In this document: in pieces, positions 51,330 to 63,858 of the stretch | Layout: each line of letters starts with the position of its first letter | Numbering within the stretch: the stretch's first letter is position 1 | Assembly (NCBI GenBank): GCA_017547165.1 | Contig: JAFYQK010000025.1 | Span: 62,001 to 126,000 of the forward strand | Reading direction: 5' to 3' | Source: Bacteroidaceae bacterium | Lineage (GTDB): Bacteria; Bacteroidota; Bacteroidia; Bacteroidales; Bacteroidaceae | Length of the DNA stretch: 64,000 nt | Notes under the pieces: generated by a model | The model's database searches: none | Told to the model about the DNA's origin: nothing | Seen by the model: the letters and a program-made list of their open reading frames with translations, nothing else | Position numbers and translations under genes: made by a program

Positions 51330-52829
51330 TTACTTGTTCAGCGACCAAGCGAAGCCGTCCTTGGTATCCTTCACCTCAAAACCGAGGGCAGAGAGGTCAT
51401 CGCGTATCTTATCTGACAAGGCCCAGTTCTTATCTGCCTTGGCCTGCTGACGCTGTTCCAGCACGATATCAACCACCTTACCAAAAGCCTCTTCGCGTGC
51501 CTTGTTGCTTCCATCCTTCTCCTCTGAAAGACCAAGGATTTCAAATGCAAAGGTATGGAACACCTCCGTGAGTGCTGCCACTACATCCTCCTTGATGCTG
51601 GCCTTCTTGTCCATAACGGTGTTGAGCACACGGCATGCGTCGAATAGATGGCTGATAACCATGGGCGAAGCCATATCATCATTCATAGCATCGTAGCAGT
51701 TCTGGCGCAAGGTGTCCACATAACTCATCTCTATCTGTGGCTGACCCTTCACCTTCTGGCCCTCCTTCAAGCGCTTCAGTGCCTTCCACGCGTCCATCAG
51801 TCGTGCCAAACCCTTCTCTGCACTTTGCAAAGCCTCATTGCTGAAGTCTACGGTACTACGATAATGTGCCTGAAGTATGAAGAAGCGGATGGTCATAGGA
51901 GAATATCCGCGCTCCAAACGCTCATGCTCACCAGCGAAGAACTGAGGCAGCGTGATGAAATTGTTATATGACTTACCCATCTTCTTGCCGTCGATGGTAA
52001 TCATGTTGTTATGCATCCAGTAGGTAACCATAGGATGTCCCTGACTTGCCTGTGCCTGTGCTATCTCACACTCGTGGTGGGGGAAGACAAGATCAAGACC
52101 GCCTCCATGAATATCAAACCTCTCACCCAGATACTTCTTGCCCATTGCCGTGCACTCGCAATGCCAGCCGGGGAAACCCTCGCTCCATGGACTTGGCCAA
52201 TGCATGATGTGTTCTGGGCTTGCCTTCTTCCAAAGAGCAAAGTCAGCCTGATTGCGTTTTTCGCCCACACCAGCCAGGGTGTCGCGACTTGCATCCTTGA
52301 TGTTCTCCAAAGAACGACCGCTCAATATGCCATACTTATGGTCCTGGTTGTAACGCTCAATATCAAAGTAGATAGAACCATTGCTCTCATAGGCATAACC
52401 GTTGTCCATAATCTGCTGAACCAACTGTTGCTGCTCAATAATATGACCTGTGGCATGAGGCTCGATGCTGGGAGGCAAACAGTTCAGTGCTGCCATGGCA
52501 TCGTGGAAACGGTTGGTATAGTACTGAGCCACCTCCATAGGTTCCAACTGCTCCAGACGAGCCTTCTTGGCAATCTTGTCCTCACCCTCGTCGGCATCAT
52601 GCTCCAGATGGCCCACATCGGTAATGTTGCGCACATAACGCACTTTATATCCCTGATGCTTCAGATAGCGGAACAACAAGTCGAAGGTAATGGCAGGACG
52701 AGCATGTCCCAAGTGTGCATCGCCATATACGGTAGGACCGCACACATACATTCCCACACGCCCCTCCACCAAAGGACGAAACAACTCCTTTTGGCGAGTC
52801 AAAGTATTGTAAATCAAAAATGGTTGCAT
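51330..52829 (-). CDS. cysS: Cysteinyl-tRNA synthetase
   Basis: 499 aa. Class I synthetase with zinc ligand C30 in [14 protein letters not shown] (39-42, HIGH motif), the second zinc region [10 protein letters not shown] and [12 protein letters not shown] as KMSKS. Charges tRNA-Cys. Its promoter seems to be in the left arm of the palindromic element at 52855-52886. Confidence 0.96.
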
Positions 52830-52854
52830 AGTTATTTCCTTAATATTTTGCTTG

Positions 52855-52886
52855 CAAAATTACGAATAAGCGAGCGAAATACCAAA
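52855..52886 (-). promoter_or_regulatory. Probable cysS promoter inside the left inverted arm
   Basis: On the minus strand TTTG (52886-52883), 20 bp, TAATTTTG (52862-52855), 26 bp before the cysS ATG. The mirror copy serves leuS. Confidence 0.6.
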
Positions 52887-53044
52887 TATATTTGAGTATT
52901 TCCGAGCGAGAGTAATTTAGAGCGAGAGGTCAATGTTACGAATAAGCGAGCCAAATACCCCAATAAAGTCTCTATTTATTTAACAATTTCCGATGCAGAA
53001 ATTTTATTTTTCCATGCACACCTAATTATACAAAGATATTCAAT

Positions 53045-53460: not shown

Positions 53461-53784
53461 TATATGTACATAATATTGTGTACATTTTTGCAATCATGTA
53501 TCTCGGGTGTTTATTTAGCAACGCAAATACTTTTATTACGGCAAGAAATGTAATTTGTCTTCAGTTTCTTTTCGCTCACTTATTCGTAACATTGAAACTT
53601 TCGTTTCTAAATTACTCACGTTGACCTTCGGTCTTCCTCCTCCTTACAAGGCATAGTATGCGAGCATCCTCTGCTCTTGTTGCGCGCGTCGGTTCGGAAA
53701 TACTCAAATAAATTTGACCTAACGGTCGAATTTGCTCCCGCTCGGCATAAAAAATATAATTTTCTACACTCGCTTAATCGCAAA

Positions 53785-53816
53785 TTTGGTTTTTCGCTCG
53801 CTTATTCGTAATTTTG
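53785..53816 (+). promoter_or_regulatory. Probable leuS promoter inside the right inverted arm
   Basis: TTTG (53785-53788), 20 bp, TAATTTTG (53809-53816), 25 bp before the leuS ATG; exact mirror of the cysS arrangement. Confidence 0.6.
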
Positions 53817-53840
53817 TCTGCAAAATAAATAAAATTAACA

Positions 53841-56681
53841 ATGAGAGAATACGATTTTAGAAAGATTGAAGAGAAGTGGCGTGCCCAATGGGTGGCCAAC
53901 AAGACATATCATGTTGTAGAGGATGAGACAAAGAAGAAGTTCTATGTCCTGAACATGTTCCCCTACCCCAGCGGTGCAGGTTTGCATGTAGGTCATCCTC
54001 TGGGTTACATTGCAAGCGATATCTATGCGCGCTTCAAGCGTCAGCAGGGCTATAATGTGCTGAACCCTATGGGATATGACTCATACGGTCTGCCTGCCGA
54101 GCAGTATGCCATCCAGACAGGTCAGCACCCCGAAAAGACTACATTCCAGAACATCGACCGCTATCGTGAGCAGTTGGACAAGATTGGTTTCTGCTTCGAT
54201 TGGGATCGCGAGGTGCGCACCTGTGCTCCTGGTTATTACCATTGGACTCAGTGGGCCTTCCAGAAGATGTTCAACTCATACTTTGACAACACTCTTGGCA
54301 AGGCTCAGCCCATAGAGCAACTCATTGCCAATTTCGAGGCAAAGGGCACAGAGGGCATTGATGCCGCTGGTTCGGAAGAACTCCGTTTCACCGCCGAAGA
54401 GTGGAAGGCTATGAGCGAGCAGGAGAAGAGCCAGACTTTGATGAACTATCGTATCGCCTTCTTGGGTGAAACAATGGTGAACTGGTGTCCCAAATTGGGT
54501 ACCGTACTGGCCAACGATGAGGTTATCGATGGTGTGAGCGAGCGTGGCGGATACCCCGTGGAGCAGAAGAAGATGCGCCAATGGTGTCTGCGTGTCAGCG
54601 CTTATGCCCAGCGCCTTCTGGATGGTTTGCAGACCATAGACTGGAGCGATAGCATCAAGGAGACACAGAAGAACTGGATTGGCAGAAGCGAAGGTGCCGA
54701 GGTGCAGATAAAGGTGGCAGATAGCGATATCGACTTCACCATCTTCACCACTCGTGCCGACACAATGTTTGGTGTGACGTTCTTCGTTCTGGCTCCTGAG
54801 AGCGAGTTGGTGGCACAACTGACCACTGCCGAGCAGAAGGAGGAGGTTGACAAGTACCTGACTTATGTTAAGAGCCGCACCGAGCGCGAGCGTCAGATAG
54901 ACCGCACCGTGACAGGTGTGTTCTCTGGTTCATACGGTATCAACCCCATCACCGGAGAGAAGTGCCCCATCTACATTGCCGAGTATGTCCTCTCTGGTTA
55001 TGGTACAGGTGCCATCATGGCAGTACCTGCACATGACTCCCGCGACTATGCCTTTGCTCGTCACTTCAACCTGCCCATCATCCCATTGGTGGAGGGTGCC
55101 GACGTAAGCGAGGAGAGCTACGATGCCAAGGAAGGTATTGTGATGAACTCTCCCATGGAGGGCAAGTCATCGCTGAATGGCTTCAGTCTGAACGGTTTAA
55201 CCATCAAGGAAGCCATCGAGGCAACAAAGAAGTTTGTTAGCGAGAATGGTCTTGGTCGTGTAAAGGTGAACTTCCGCCTTCGCGATGCCATCTTCTCTCG
55301 CCAGAGATATTGGGGTGAGCCCTTCCCCGTTTACTATAAGCAGGGCATCCCTTGCATGATTCCCGAGGAATGTCTGCCCGTGGAACTACCACAGGTAGAG
55401 AACTTCCTTCCCACCGAGAGTGGCGAGCCCCCATTGGGCAATGCGCAGATGTGGGCATGGGACGAGGCTAACCGCAAGATTGTGGATAAGGCACTCATCG
55501 ACGAGAAGACCGTCTTCCCCATCGAACTTTTCACCATGCCTGGCTTTGCCGGTTCAAGTGCATACTATCTGCGCTACATGGACCCCAACAATGCGGAGGC
55601 TCTCGTTGGCGAGAAGGTTTCGGAGTACTGGCAGAATGTTGACCTCTATGTAGGTGGTAGCGAGCATGCCACAGGTCACCTCATCTACTCTCGCTTCTGG
55701 AACAAGTTCCTCTTCGACCTCGGAGTGAGCAAGAAGGAAGAACCCTTCCAGAAACTCATCAATCAGGGTATGATTCAGGGCCGAAGCAACTTCGTTTACC
55801 GTATCAAAGACACCAACACCTTCGTCAGCCTCGGTTTGAAAGACCAGTACGACACCACTCCCATCCATGTAGATGTGAACATCGTGAAGAACGATGTGCT
55901 GGACGTAGAGGCCTTCAAGGCATGGCGCCCAGAGTATGAGACCGCCGAGTTCATCCTGGAGGACGACAAGTATATTTGCGGATGGGCCGTGGAGAAGATG
56001 TCCAAGAGCATGTTCAATGTGGTTAACCCCGATATGATTGTGGAGCGCTATGGTGCCGACACCTTACGTCTTTACGAAATGTTCCTCGGTCCCGTGGAGC
56101 AAAGCAAGCCCTGGGATACCAATGGTATTGACGGATGCCATCGCTTCCTGAAAAAGTTGTGGCAGCTCTTCTGGGACAAGGACGGCAACCTGCAGGTAGA
56201 TGCCACAGAACCCACCGCTGACAACATGAAGTCTCTGCACAAACTCATCAAGAAGGTAAGTGCCGACATAGAGGAATTCTCATACAACACCTCTATCTCT
56301 GCCTTCATGGTGGCAACAAACGAGTTGACCGCACAGAAGTGCCGTAGCCGCGAGGTGATGACACAGATTGTTGCTCTGCTGGCTCCATTTGCACCTCATG
56401 TGGCAGAGGAGTTATGGGAAGCACTTGGTCAGGAAGGCAGTGTATGCGATGCACAGTGGCCAGAGTTCGACGAGAAGTACCTTGTGGAAAGCAGTGTACA
56501 GTTAGGTGTTCAGTTCAATGGCAAGGTTCGTTTCTCTATGCTCTTCCCTGCCGACGCAACTCCCGAGCAGATGGTGGAGATGGCACTGGCAGCACCCGAG
56601 GCACAGAAGCACATCGAGGGCAAGCAGATAGTAAAGACCATCGCCGTGCCCAAGCGCATCGTTAACATCGTAGTAAAATAA
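53841..56681 (+). CDS. leuS: Leucyl-tRNA synthetase
   Basis: 946 aa. Class I synthetase charging tRNA-Leu, with HVGH (49-52) in [16 protein letters not shown], the CP1 editing domain (~240-450; [19 protein letters not shown] is the editing signature), KMSKS near residue 719 ([11 protein letters not shown]) and the C-terminal anticodon region. Length is slightly above the E. coli enzyme (860 aa), as is usual in Bacteroidetes. Followed by a hairpin. Confidence 0.97.
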
Positions 56682-61027: not shown

Positions 61028-61627
61028 TTAAAGTTTATCCTCAATAATGCGGCGTGCTCCCAGATATCTACCCCTATAGTAAGTCGAGGTAGACTCGTCC
61101 ACTATAACACCTCTGCGGCAAGCATGCACAAATTTAAACACCTTGTTTGCCGGATCTACATCGGTCACAATGCCCACATGTCCCACTCTGCGTGGATTTT
61201 TAGGACTTCCAAAGAAAACAAGGTCACCCTTCTTCAGTTCGCACACATCCTCCACCTTCATACCCTGTGTAAATTGCGAATACGAAGTGCGCAGGATATT
61301 GATATTCTCCTTTTTGAAAACAAACGAAGTGAATCCTGAGCAATCGAACACCGTAGGTCCCATCGAGCCCCTGCGATATCTTGCTCCCAGATATTGCATT
61401 GCCGTCATCACAATGCTATCGCCTTTGCTCAGTGCCTTTTTGCCCCATACCTCAACATCCTCGGTCTCCATCATCAAGGCAACCTCAGGAGAGATGCACG
61501 CCGGTGGCAATGTTGCAAACACGGCATTCCCCGAGAGCACAATATCCATGCCCACTACAATCAATACCGCCAAGGTTCGCAATAAAGCACTCTTCATCTT
61601 CCCTATTTTCATCGGAAATACTATCAT
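61028..61627 (-). CDS. NlpC/P60 family cell-wall peptidase
   Basis: 199 aa. Start at 61627 chosen because GAGGAGG stands 9 bp upstream, rare in this window; in-frame ATGs at 61612 and 61597 are alternatives. N-terminal hydrophobic export signal (~16-35), then the NlpC/P60 domain (~68-199): catalytic Cys in TVFDCSGFTSFVF, His in GHVGIVTDVD and a third polar residue in FVHACRRG. Cleaves D-Glu-gamma-meso-DAP-type bonds in peptidoglycan stem peptides. Confidence 0.87.
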   Translation of the reverse strand: MIVFPMKIGKMKSALLRTLAVLIVVGMDIVLSGNAVFATLPPACISPEVALMMETEDVEVWGKKALSKGDSIVMTAMQYLGARYRRGSMGPTVFDCSGFTSFVFKKENINILRTSYSQFTQGMKVEDVCELKKGDLVFFGSPKNPRRVGHVGIVTDVDPANKVFKFVHACRRGVIVDESTSTYYRGRYLGARRIIEDKL

Positions 61628-61801
61628 TTTACCTCGCCTCCTCTCTATTGTTATCTATCTACCCAAGGGTAGCAAGCAATATGTCGGTGCAAAATTACTC
61701 ATTTTTTCACACAATTCGGTACTCTTCATTGCTAAATTTCACATAATCAAACCATTTTGAAGAATAATCAACTGATGCAGAGTGAATAGGAATATAGATA
61801 T

Positions 61802-62435
61802 TTAGTATCTTTGCATAGGTAAAAACAGTTGTGGCTTGCAGATTTGCTTCATCAAGATTGTTGTGAATTGCTTTCGAATTAGTATCTTTGCATAGGTAAA
61901 AACAGTGGACCAACCCATAATTATTATTAAGTAAAAGTTGTGAATTGCTTTCGAATTAGTATCTTTGCATAGGTAAAAACAGTCCGATATATGCTTATCT
62001 TAACAGCCTAATGTTGTGAATTGCTTTCGAATTAGTATCTTTGCATAGGTAAAAACAGTGAGATACGATGTTAACTATTTGTTGTGAATTGCTTTCGAAT
62101 TAGTATCTTTGCATAGGTAAAAACAGTTTTGTAGTTGTTCGGGAGTATAGGTATTTAGTTGTGAATTGCTTTCGAATTAGTATCTTTGCATAGGTAAAAA
62201 CAGTTTTCAAATAAAAAATCTTTCACAATTATTTGTTGTGAATTGCTTTCGAATTAGTATCTTTGCATAGGTAAAAACAGTAAAAAGCTTTCGCAATTGA
62301 AAAAAAACAGTGTTGTGAATTGCTTTCGAATTAGTATCTTTGCATAGGTAAAAACAGTTTAATAAATTATTTAATTTCGTTCGTTATAGTTGTGAATTGC
62401 TTTCGAATTAGTATCTTTGCATAGGTAAAAACAGT
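61802..62435 (+). CRISPR. Type II-C CRISPR array, 8 full 47-bp repeats plus one degenerate repeat, 8 spacers
   Basis: Repeat begins GTTGTGAATTGCTTTCGAAT and ends GCATAGGTAAAAACAGT. Full identical copies start at 61860, 61937, 62013, 62081, 62158, 62235, 62312 and 62389. A degenerate copy at the left keeps only the last 28 bp (61802-61829). Spacers are 30, 30, 29, 21, 30, 30, 30 and 30 bp. Each full repeat contains TTG-N19-TATCTTTG, a complete Bacteroidetes promoter pointing right, so crRNA is probably read on the plus strand, convergent with cas2. The decayed repeat marks the old end, and new spacers would enter near 62435. Confidence 0.97.
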
Positions 62436-62552
62436 ATGGTTGTATTAAAAGGTTATTAACCAACTGTTTGCGTGAGATATTAGAAAAGAAAAAACAATTA
62501 GTTTTTACCCTAACAATAGGATGGTTGCCGTGAAAAGCACCATCCTATTTTT
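62436..62552 (+). ncRNA. Possible small RNA or tracrRNA candidate after the last repeat
   Basis: The promoter in the last repeat (TTG 62390-62392, TATCTTTG 62412-62419) would start an RNA near 62424 that ends at the terminator 62515-62552, about 125 nt, with no further repeat to make it a crRNA. It contains ACTGTTT, AGATATTAG (62475-62483) and CAATT (62495-62499), partly complementary to the CRISPR repeat in the right order. Pairing to the first bases of the repeat (GTTGTG) is poor, so a tracrRNA role is doubtful; the true tracrRNA may be beyond the window. Confidence 0.3.
62515..62552 (+). terminator. Intrinsic terminator after the CRISPR array
   Basis: AATAGGATGGT (62515-62525) pairs with ACCATCCTATT (62539-62549), then TTT. 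It points rightward, so it ends transcripts coming out of the array before they run antisense into cas2. Confidence 0.85.
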
Positions 62553-62565
62553 GATAATATCGAAA

Positions 62566-62898
62566 TTAGAATAGTTCCAATTGTACTCCATTGGCAAGAT
62601 TTGGCATTGTCTTTTGTCCGTGAAATAAAAGCATTGCACCAAATTGCTTGTCCGTTATGGTCATTATACCTACCTTGCCATATTCTGGCAACATCGTCCT
62701 TACACGTTTAACATGAGCTTCTGCGTTTTCACAACTGGCACAATGTCTGATATAGATGGAGAATTGGAACATAGTAAAACCATCGCGTTGTAAGTCTTTA
62801 CGGAATTTCAATGCAGCTTTTTTGTCACGCTTAGTTTCCGTAGGAAGATCGAAGAATACAAGTACCCACATGACTCTATACTGACTAAAACGATCCAT
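62566..62898 (-). CDS. cas2: CRISPR-associated endonuclease Cas2, type II
   Basis: 110 aa. Ferredoxin-like Cas2 fold: [21 protein letters not shown] with the metal Asp in [22 protein letters not shown] and a C-terminal strand ending ANGVQLELF. The dimer bridges two Cas1 dimers in the spacer-integration complex. It begins 21 bp after the cas1 stop and ends beside the array. Confidence 0.95.
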
Positions 62899-62919: not shown

Positions 62920-63858
62920 TTACTTTTCTGGATAAGCCACCTTGCGCAACTCTCCGCTAAAGCATTTATAGAGCGAAGCTGTTGTTTGGGTTACTCCAAC
63001 CATCAATGGACTCTTCTTGCCACTGATAACAACATCCAATGTAGGGATAAGCAGAAGCTCTGCTTTCCATGCCTTGGTCAATTCTTCTGGTGGCATACCA
63101 AGCCTACCAATAATTTGAACAATATATTCATCAACATAGGGACGATAAGGTTCCATAATGTCATCGGCAAGGCAATAAGCATTATAACGATTGTGGTGGT
63201 GTATGCCCAAGGTTGGGAGCATGCCACTAGACACCAAGGCACGAGCCACAATGGCTCGCAAAATTGCATAACCATAGTTCAGTGCATTGTTGGGTGGCAC
63301 TCCATCGCGGTCGCGTGTAAATCCCTCTATATGCTCACCAAACATACATCGCCAATAATATGCCGCGGCACGGCCCTCAAAATTGTCAGGGTCTCCACTA
63401 CGCACATCCCTTGCCCATGCTCGCATGCATCCAATCTCAACACCACGACAGGCAGATAGTACAGAGGCTTGATTACTGATTTTTGCCTGTATGGTTTGTT
63501 GCCATAGTTGTTTCTTCAATGGCAAGGACGCATCTATCTGATTACGGAAACGCTCGCTCTGGGTGGTATTACCACATAGTGGTAGTATCAAACCCGATGG
63601 CATGCTACGATGGTCACAAGTAATGATGGCACAATTGTTTTCAAGCAATGCCTCAATAGCACCTGTGGTGATAGTGATGCGCTGATTGTCGAGCACCACC
63701 ACACCTATGTCCTCAATGGGTTTTGTTACCTGTGTTTGCACTTTGAAAGAATCTGGAAGAGTTTCATTTTTCTCCACCTCTGGTATTTTTATTACCAATT
63801 GTGCGTTCTTTAACGACAGATACGCAGGATTACCAAAATAAATGGTTTTCTTAATCAT
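62920..63858 (-). CDS. cas1: CRISPR-associated endonuclease Cas1, type II-C
   Basis: 312 aa. Integrase of the spacer-acquisition complex. Metal site: E161 in NFEGRAAAYYW, His of GIHHHNRYNAY (220-222) and acidic residues of LADDIMEPYRP (E236). The N-terminal beta domain starts MIKKTIYFGNPAYLSLKNAQL, as in type II-C Cas1. Its 5' side is separated by a hairpin from the cas9 end; no csn2 or cas4 is present, fitting subtype II-C. Confidence 0.96.
   Translation of the reverse strand: MIKKTIYFGNPAYLSLKNAQLVIKIPEVEKNETLPDSFKVQTQVTKPIEDIGVVVLDNQRITITTGAIEALLENNCAIITCDHRSMPSGLILPLCGNTTQSERFRNQIDASLPLKKQLWQQTIQAKISNQASVLSACRGVEIGCMRAWARDVRSGDPDNFEGRAAAYYWRCMFGEHIEGFTRDRDGVPPNNALNYGYAILRAIVARALVSSGMLPTLGIHHHNRYNAYCLADDIMEPYRPYVDEYIVQIIGRLGMPPEELTKAWKAELLLIPTLDVVISGKKSPLMVGVTQTTASLYKCFSGELRKVAYPEK

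Follow-up and report, generated by a model that had tools for sequence, protein, structure and literature searches.

Which promoter reads the CRISPR array near the end of the 64,000-nucleotide stretch of Bacteroidaceae DNA analysed here (the window)? The array (61860..62435, + strand) consists of eight identical 47-nt repeats, starting at 61860, 61937, 62013, 62081, 62158, 62235, 62312, and 62389, and seven spacers. One of the spacers (62060-62080) is just 21 nt in length, and the remaining spacers are 29-30 nt. At the oldest end of the array, a half-decayed ninth repeat was found at 61783..61829 (+), followed by the oldest spacer of 30 nt (61830..61859, +). Positions 1-18 of this ninth repeat are largely lost, while positions 19-47 are essentially intact with one difference at position 20. 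On the other side lie cas2 (62566..62898, - strand, TIGR01573), a type II cas1 (62920..63858, - strand, TIGR03639), and cas9 (- strand, mostly beyond the window, with an open frame of 1452 codons, TIGR01865). There is no space for a further gene such as csn2 or cas4 between cas9, cas1, cas2, and the array. With its cas9, type II cas1, cas2, and candidate tracrRNA, the locus is a type II-C CRISPR-Cas system.

The earlier note on this DNA had claimed that every repeat is a complete promoter, in which TTG at repeat positions 2-4 is followed after 19 bp by TATCTTTG at positions 24-31. This arrangement is indeed present in all eight full repeats. In repeat 1, TTG lies at 61861..61863 (+), 19 bp 5′ of the 8-nt TATCTTTG box at 61883..61890 (+), and in repeats 2-8 the box begins at 61960, 62036, 62104, 62181, 62258, 62335, and 62412. 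The decayed ninth repeat has lost TTG and retains TATCTTTG at 61806-61813. Thus, a sequence matching TAnnTTTG, the -7 box of the host's main sigma factor, is found within every repeat on the crRNA strand, in eight of the eight full copies and in the decayed one. The TTG-N19-TAnnTTTG pattern occurs 14 times in the window, eight times in the array and six times elsewhere, against 1.07 expected from dinucleotide shuffles of the whole window. With ORFs of 150 aa or more considered, four of the six non-array sites sit 13-117 bp 5′ of a start ATG; of the other two, one has no ORF of that size within 400 bp and the second is within a sense ORF. Promoter scans without the Bacteroidota consensus can miss the box, as does an E. 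coli-type scan of the array region (seven matches versus 6.1 by chance). Since the repeats are copied from each other, the eight box copies are one observation, and independent evidence must come from other species.

I therefore turned to other species. Type II Cas1 was searched in 395 Bacteroidota genomes and in 201 genomes of the window's family, and 120 stretches were taken. The first draw contributed every Cas1 match over the cut-off and one below it (L124), and the second contributed 60 of 71 new matches, the 11 omitted ones being among the lower-scoring and including two second copies. Adding the locus of the window makes 121 loci. Arrays were found de novo in 107 of them; 14 have no array, with between one and three repeat-like copies in three of the 14. 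L124 does not belong to type II, and its removal leaves 106 type II cas1 loci; it is excluded from the box, leader, tree, tracrRNA, end-anchored decay, and terminator counts, and is still among the 95 loci of the decay count with distant remnants. The comparison loci were chosen by type II Cas1 alone, and cas9 and csn2 were not checked locus by locus. Repeats were oriented by their GTTGTG end, and this orientation was compared with the cas1 strand. A second scan took the best 80 of 582 named loci, with record titles including Bacteroides, Phocaeicola, Parabacteroides, Prevotella, Alistipes, and Dysgonomonas, and gave 65 arrays, seven already in the first set and 58 new. L240 (mis-anchored) and L191 (trimmed repeat) were left out of the decayed-repeat, tracrRNA, and terminator counts and of part of the variant counts.

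Is the box conserved? All but three of the 39 distinct long repeats that face the cas genes in the window's family have the strict TAnnTTTG on the crRNA strand (36 repeats), and in 33 it stands exactly N19 after TTG. On the opposite strand it occurs in none of the 39, against 0.53 expected from shuffles of position 12 to the end. The second scan added 53 distinct repeats from arrays that face the cas genes; the strict box is present in 47 of them, at N19 in 37. In an alignment of II-C repeats, a check that the earlier note had suggested, the box (positions 24-31) has 1.52 bits per position and stands above the bases that follow it (0.56 for 32-36 and 0.45 for 37-41); positions 1-12 have 1.85 bits, 13-23 have 1.25, and 42-47 have 1.29 (37 family repeats of 47 nt). 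Outside the family, in the phylum-wide set, the strict box is found in five of 26 distinct long repeats and four of 22 distinct short repeats. The looser TAnnTT is found in 21 of the 26 long repeats (10.8 expected), and [TG]AnnTT in all 22 short repeats (7.0 expected). In short II-C repeats outside the family (L088, L100, L111, L120), [TG]AnnTT often lies at positions 31-36 and TTG at 9-11, as judged by eye; this 3′-end [TG]AnnTT may be a -7 box for which the start of the first spacer supplies the last bases. Taken as sequence evidence, which is indirect, these data argue strongly for TAnnTTTG in the repeat as a promoter element. Interior repeat variants (26 changes in 1385 repeats) are too few for a test of selection. 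Across repeats, a pyrimidine at +4 and a purine at +5 follow the box, and this step is weak in gene promoters; an initiator-like YR step in the latter was inflated by tracrRNA promoters and undetected repeat copies, and the cleaned values are 0.40 and 0.41 at neighbouring steps. One box-carrying II-C array (L232) is in a metagenome-assembled genome titled Eubacteriales with its Cas1 among those of Bacteroidales, indicating mis-binning or transfer.

Repeat-internal anchors for integration exist in other CRISPR types. The block at 24-31 might likewise be where Cas1-Cas2 or a host factor docks on the DNA when a spacer is integrated, and the conserved 3′ end of the repeat (42-47, 1.29 bits) fits such a role. 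However, the same motif stands in leaders beside other cas1 types and upstream of tracrRNA, and I consider a docking site very improbable as the reason for its conservation.

Which strand of the array gives crRNA? A candidate tracrRNA lies beside the 5′ end of cas9 on the + strand, where a TATATTTG box is followed by five bases and then by AATTCGAAGCAATTCACAA. The latter is complementary to repeat positions 2-21 with one bulge, and a hairpin and a T-run are found further 3′. In a laxer pairing walk, the pairing of this tracrRNA reaches repeat position 26. Since it is the + strand of the repeat that pairs with the tracrRNA, the crRNA is on the + strand and runs from the decayed repeat to cas2. 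The earlier note had counted crRNA read from the opposite strand among the findings that would overturn its proposal, and the tracrRNA complementarity places crRNA on the same strand as the box.

For 74 of the 93 loci that carry the box and face the cas genes, the tracrRNA was located. Its pairing ends at repeat positions 24-26 in 49 of the 74 loci, earlier in 12, and later in 13 (at 28 or beyond in 11). Thus, the duplex mostly stops about where the crRNA box begins. A TAnnTTTG of the tracrRNA's own lies within 70 nt upstream in 64 of the 74 loci, and 19-23 nt before CACAA in 57, so that the tracrRNA transcript probably starts at the duplex end. Could the box be conserved through anti-repeat pairing rather than as a promoter? 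TA at 24-25 is within reach of the anti-repeat in many loci, and the 11 loci with pairing to 28 or beyond would suit this explanation. However, pairing ends at or before 26 in 61 of the 74 loci and leaves TTTG unpaired, the tracrRNA's own upstream box suggests a transcript start at the duplex end, and 12 leader-driven arrays, described below, have no box in the repeat. It is hardly credible that pairing alone maintains the box; T24 and A25 may be shared with the tracrRNA pairing, and TTTG mostly would not be. In L003 (G000:C24, about 130295-130321, - strand), the sequence preceding cas9 looks like the 3′ half of a repeat, including the box (TATATTTG), as if the pre-cas9 promoter and the repeat promoter were related or convergent.

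In which direction does the array grow? Among the arrays facing the cas genes, the first repeat is degenerate (at least three differences) in 30 of 94 loci and the last repeat in none of 94. When more distant remnants are counted, the first repeat is decayed in 35 of 95 loci, L124 being one of the 95. Riemerella anatipestifer has a II-C array described with 47-bp repeats and 30-bp spacers like those of the window (PMC5006608, PMC6008519), and its new spacers are reported to be inserted at the cas2 end (PMC6008519). By the decay polarity and the insertion end of this relative, the leader or acquisition end of the window array is the stretch from the array to cas2 (62436..62565, no strand assigned), and the array is read toward its acquisition end with the oldest repeat 5′. 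Because the crRNA strand runs toward the acquisition end, a leader promoter points the wrong way and cannot drive the array. Therefore, the driver sits either within the array or beyond its old end.

A single promoter beyond the old end could read the whole array and leave the repeat boxes idle or as a weak backup, since transcription through several units would also yield usable crRNA. Of 74 loci facing the cas genes, nine have an inward box in the 150 nt that precede the first repeat. In the second scan, five of the eight loci with an upstream box have it at -54 or -55, the expected site of the box of a decayed repeat. However, an inward upstream box is missing from 65 of the 74 loci, and with outward boxes in 10 of the 74 there is no excess of inward ones; in the window, no TAnnTTTG is found on the + strand at 61483-61782. 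Furthermore, idle boxes would be unlikely to stay conserved above the bases after them. An external promoter is thus an improbable sole driver, and promoters within the repeats are the preferred explanation. On the leader side of arrays facing the cas genes, a box reading inward was found in two of 73.

Does the oldest repeat retain its box? An end-anchored recount was limited to the 60 box-carrying arrays preceded by 120 nt or more of sequence (for another 35 the upstream stretch is shorter). A decayed end copy was found in 24 of the 60, of which 19 have kept the box and five have lost it. A search of the same kind on the leader side gave a decayed copy in one of 162. With uniform breakpoints, an estimated 16 or so of the 24 would keep the box, and therefore 19 of 24 is not significant alone. 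In L148, L173, and L196, the in-box changes are solely at its two free positions (by eye). Such retention would be expected if the promoter of the oldest spacer were under selection, though it does not prove this; as the oldest repeat is unused in integration, the retention also speaks, weakly when taken alone, against the docking site considered above. The raw mismatches of decayed first repeats (317/692 in the handle, 14/280 in the box, and 40/477 after the box) were set aside, because outward truncation and the detection threshold favour this contrast. In another report, the extra II-C repeat is said to mutate mainly in its first 15 nt, and the suggestion is made that it may have to retain its promoter (PMC12080349).

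The other half of the claimed promoter, the TTG, fared differently. After arrays, tracrRNA regions, and repeat-like copies were removed, TTG was found 5′ of intergenic TAnnTTTG in the family loci at N19 in 30 and at N20 in 40 of 336 sites, while the remaining spacings from N10 to N30 account for 0.9-4.2% each, N12 excepted. The first spacing profile had been inflated by tracrRNA promoters and undetected repeat copies, and the N19/N20 preference stands after cleaning. Outside the family this preference is slight, as TTG stands at N19 in 12 of 196 sites, at N20 in 13, and at N13 in 12. TTG is also enriched 12 bp 5′ of the intergenic box in the family loci (21/336, 6.2%). In the repeat, TTG at positions 2-4 (61861..61863 in repeat 1) belongs to the GTTGTG end that pairs with the tracrRNA. 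The repeats of the 12 leader-driven II-C loci begin with GTTG although they have no box, and TTG at N18-N20 is present in three of 22 decayed repeats in which the box survives and six or more bases of the handle are gone. No TTG was listed at N17-N22 of the leader boxes in the 12 loci of the leader-driven clade. Since TTG is part of the tracrRNA handle, is present without the box, and is seldom kept after decay, it is not independent evidence of a -33 box. It is at the right distance, but it is the handle that holds it there; it may contribute and is probably dispensable. Of the "complete promoter" of the earlier note, the -7 box stands as conserved, strand-specific, and mostly in one register, and the N19 spacing is enriched, while TTG may or may not be a selected -33 box.

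If promoters lie in the repeats of arrays facing the cas genes, where are they in other arrays? In the family, 12 II-C loci have short repeats (36 nt, one trimmed to 28) and are read along the cas genes. None of the 12 has a box in the repeat. Instead, an inward box lies within 150 nt before the first repeat in 11 of the 12, at -90 to -92 in eight, and an outward box in the same upstream stretch was found in none of the 12. Several of these leader boxes directly follow the apparent stop codon of cas2, as seen by eye. The last repeat is decayed in five of the 12, at the 3′ side, and the first in none. On the Cas1 tree (163 proteins, quick method, midpoint root), the leader-driven loci form one group among the loci facing the cas genes (SH-aLRT 87; 95 for 11 of them). 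Because they are one clade, the recurring box distance may be due to shared descent, and because the root is the midpoint, the tree does not show in which direction the layout changed.

The box was also assessed beside other cas1 types. Twenty non-type-II cas1 loci of the family have 18 arrays, and the box is present, on either strand, in the repeat of one of these. A flank box within 200 nt reads inward in 15 of the 18 and outward in five, at recurring distances of -17 to -21 (seven arrays), -107 (three), and -58 (three). In L268, L271, L273-L276, and L278, whose repeats I take to be Cas12a-like, TAnnTTTG is found only 17-21 nt 5′ of the first repeat. Thus, in this sample, the box normally precedes the array and is found within the repeat in II-C arrays facing the cas genes, as read from the sequences.

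Five exceptions to the rule that an array with a repeat box faces the cas genes were found in the second scan, namely L240, L225 (at a contig end, with four repeats), and L255-L257, all of which run with the cas genes. L255, L256, and L257, which are from Paludibacteraceae, have a II-C array whose orientation relative to the cas genes is reversed. The decayed repeat is nevertheless the 5′ one in L255 (10 mismatches) and L256 (11), as though array and leader had undergone one joint inversion. It seems reasonably likely that Bacteroidota II-C arrays have two layouts that switch as a package, the promoter having moved as the polarity of acquisition changed relative to the crRNA strand. One layout would have a promoter in each repeat, an array facing the cas genes with its old end 5′, and a terminator before cas2. 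The other would have a leader promoter just 3′ of the cas2 stop codon and an array along the cas genes with its old end 3′, and no terminator is seen in it. If this model is true, it helps explain why orientation tools disagree on II-C arrays.

The terminator of the first layout is suggested by a hairpin followed by a T-run at 62512..62552 (+), between the array and cas2, with z = -4.0. A stock terminator scan lists none for this stretch; it allows loops of 3-8 only, and the loop here is 13. Among box-carrying loci that face the cas genes, a sense hairpin was found 3′ of the array in 65 of 92 and 5′ of it in seven of 57. Of the loci with this orientation that lack the strict box, 15 of 53 have it 3′ of the array. 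In the leader-driven loci, a hairpin stands before the array in none of 12 (sense) and one of 12 (antisense), and after the array in none of 10. An antisense hairpin is nearly as common 3′ of the box-carrying arrays (53 of 92), and hence the hairpins may serve the cas operon. A hairpin at this position would fit a pair of converging transcripts, but it could just as well terminate that of the cas genes.

Taken together, the most probable answer to the question, to which I give a probability of about 0.86, is that each repeat is a crRNA handle combined with a Bacteroidota -7 box that would start one transcript per spacer. The repeat would have two parts. The first, from position 1 up to about 24, is the handle by which crRNA pairs with the tracrRNA; in the second, at positions 24-31, TAnnTTTG would serve as the -7 box of the Bacteroidota primary sigma factor. 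RNA polymerase is predicted to start about 5 nt after the box, near repeat position 36 (± 2 nt) in every unit, which is 61895 (+) in repeat 1. The transcript would read through the spacer into the next repeat, toward cas2. Such a primary transcript would consist of about 12 nt of repeat, the spacer, and the next handle, and would be trimmed by tracrRNA pairing and RNase III. The hairpin would stop array transcripts before they run antisense into cas2 and cas1. Since acquisition at the cas2 end adds a repeat along with every spacer, each spacer would have its own promoter behind it. Transcription itself, its start position, the single primary transcript per spacer, and its processing are what I infer from the DNA. 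If the repeat is a promoter, every new spacer brings its own and the supply of crRNA need not fall along the array, while one repeat mutation could silence one memory only. The box also provides a sequence rule for orienting Bacteroidota II-C arrays, which are inconsistently oriented by published tools.

The idea of a repeat promoter is itself already known from Campylobacter and Neisseria and has been proposed for Flavobacterium. In the II-C system of Campylobacter jejuni, each repeat is described as carrying the promoter of the following spacer (Dugar 2013, PMC3656092). There, as proposed here, tracrRNA and RNase III trim the 3′ end. The C. jejuni repeat ends with GGTAAAAT, which is extended -10-like, and transcripts are reported to start at spacer position 5 (PMC3656092), whereas TAnnTTTG here lies at positions 24-31 of a 47-nt repeat and the predicted start is within the repeat. 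According to accounts of Zhang 2013, Neisseria meningitidis II-C has a promoter in each repeat, read toward the variable end as here (PMC5006608, PMC8092290, PMC10309648), but its sigma consensus differs from the Bacteroidota box. For the II-C arrays of Flavobacterium columnare and F. psychrophilum, a repeat promoter was proposed from TTG alone, located 33 or 35 bp before the spacer, and eight within-array reads toward the leader are given for F. columnare (PMC8092290, PMC10309648). In the accessible parts of these reports, no -7 box is identified in the repeat and TAnnTTTG is named only for cas9, whereas here the box is in the repeat. For R. anatipestifer, a repeat promoter was reported absent and leader promoters were predicted with the BDGP neural-network tool, as far as the parts seen of the reports go (PMC5006608, PMC6008519). 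Among the literature matches listed, which are excerpts from open PubMed Central only, TAnnTTTG is not named in II-C repeats. New in this analysis are the -7 box, together with its register and how widely it occurs, the lesser weight given to TTG, and the alternation between leader and repeat.

Further copies of a similar pattern with N20 spacing were found elsewhere in the window. A 44-nt inverted repeat (52844-52887 and 53784-53827), the arms of which are 91% complementary, has TTG-N20-TAnnTTTG in each arm. The arms lie 24-25 bp 5′ of two ORFs, 51330-52829 (-) and 53841-56681 (+), which are tRNA-synthetase-like (named by eye). Related arms are also present at 52930-52959 and 53570-53597.
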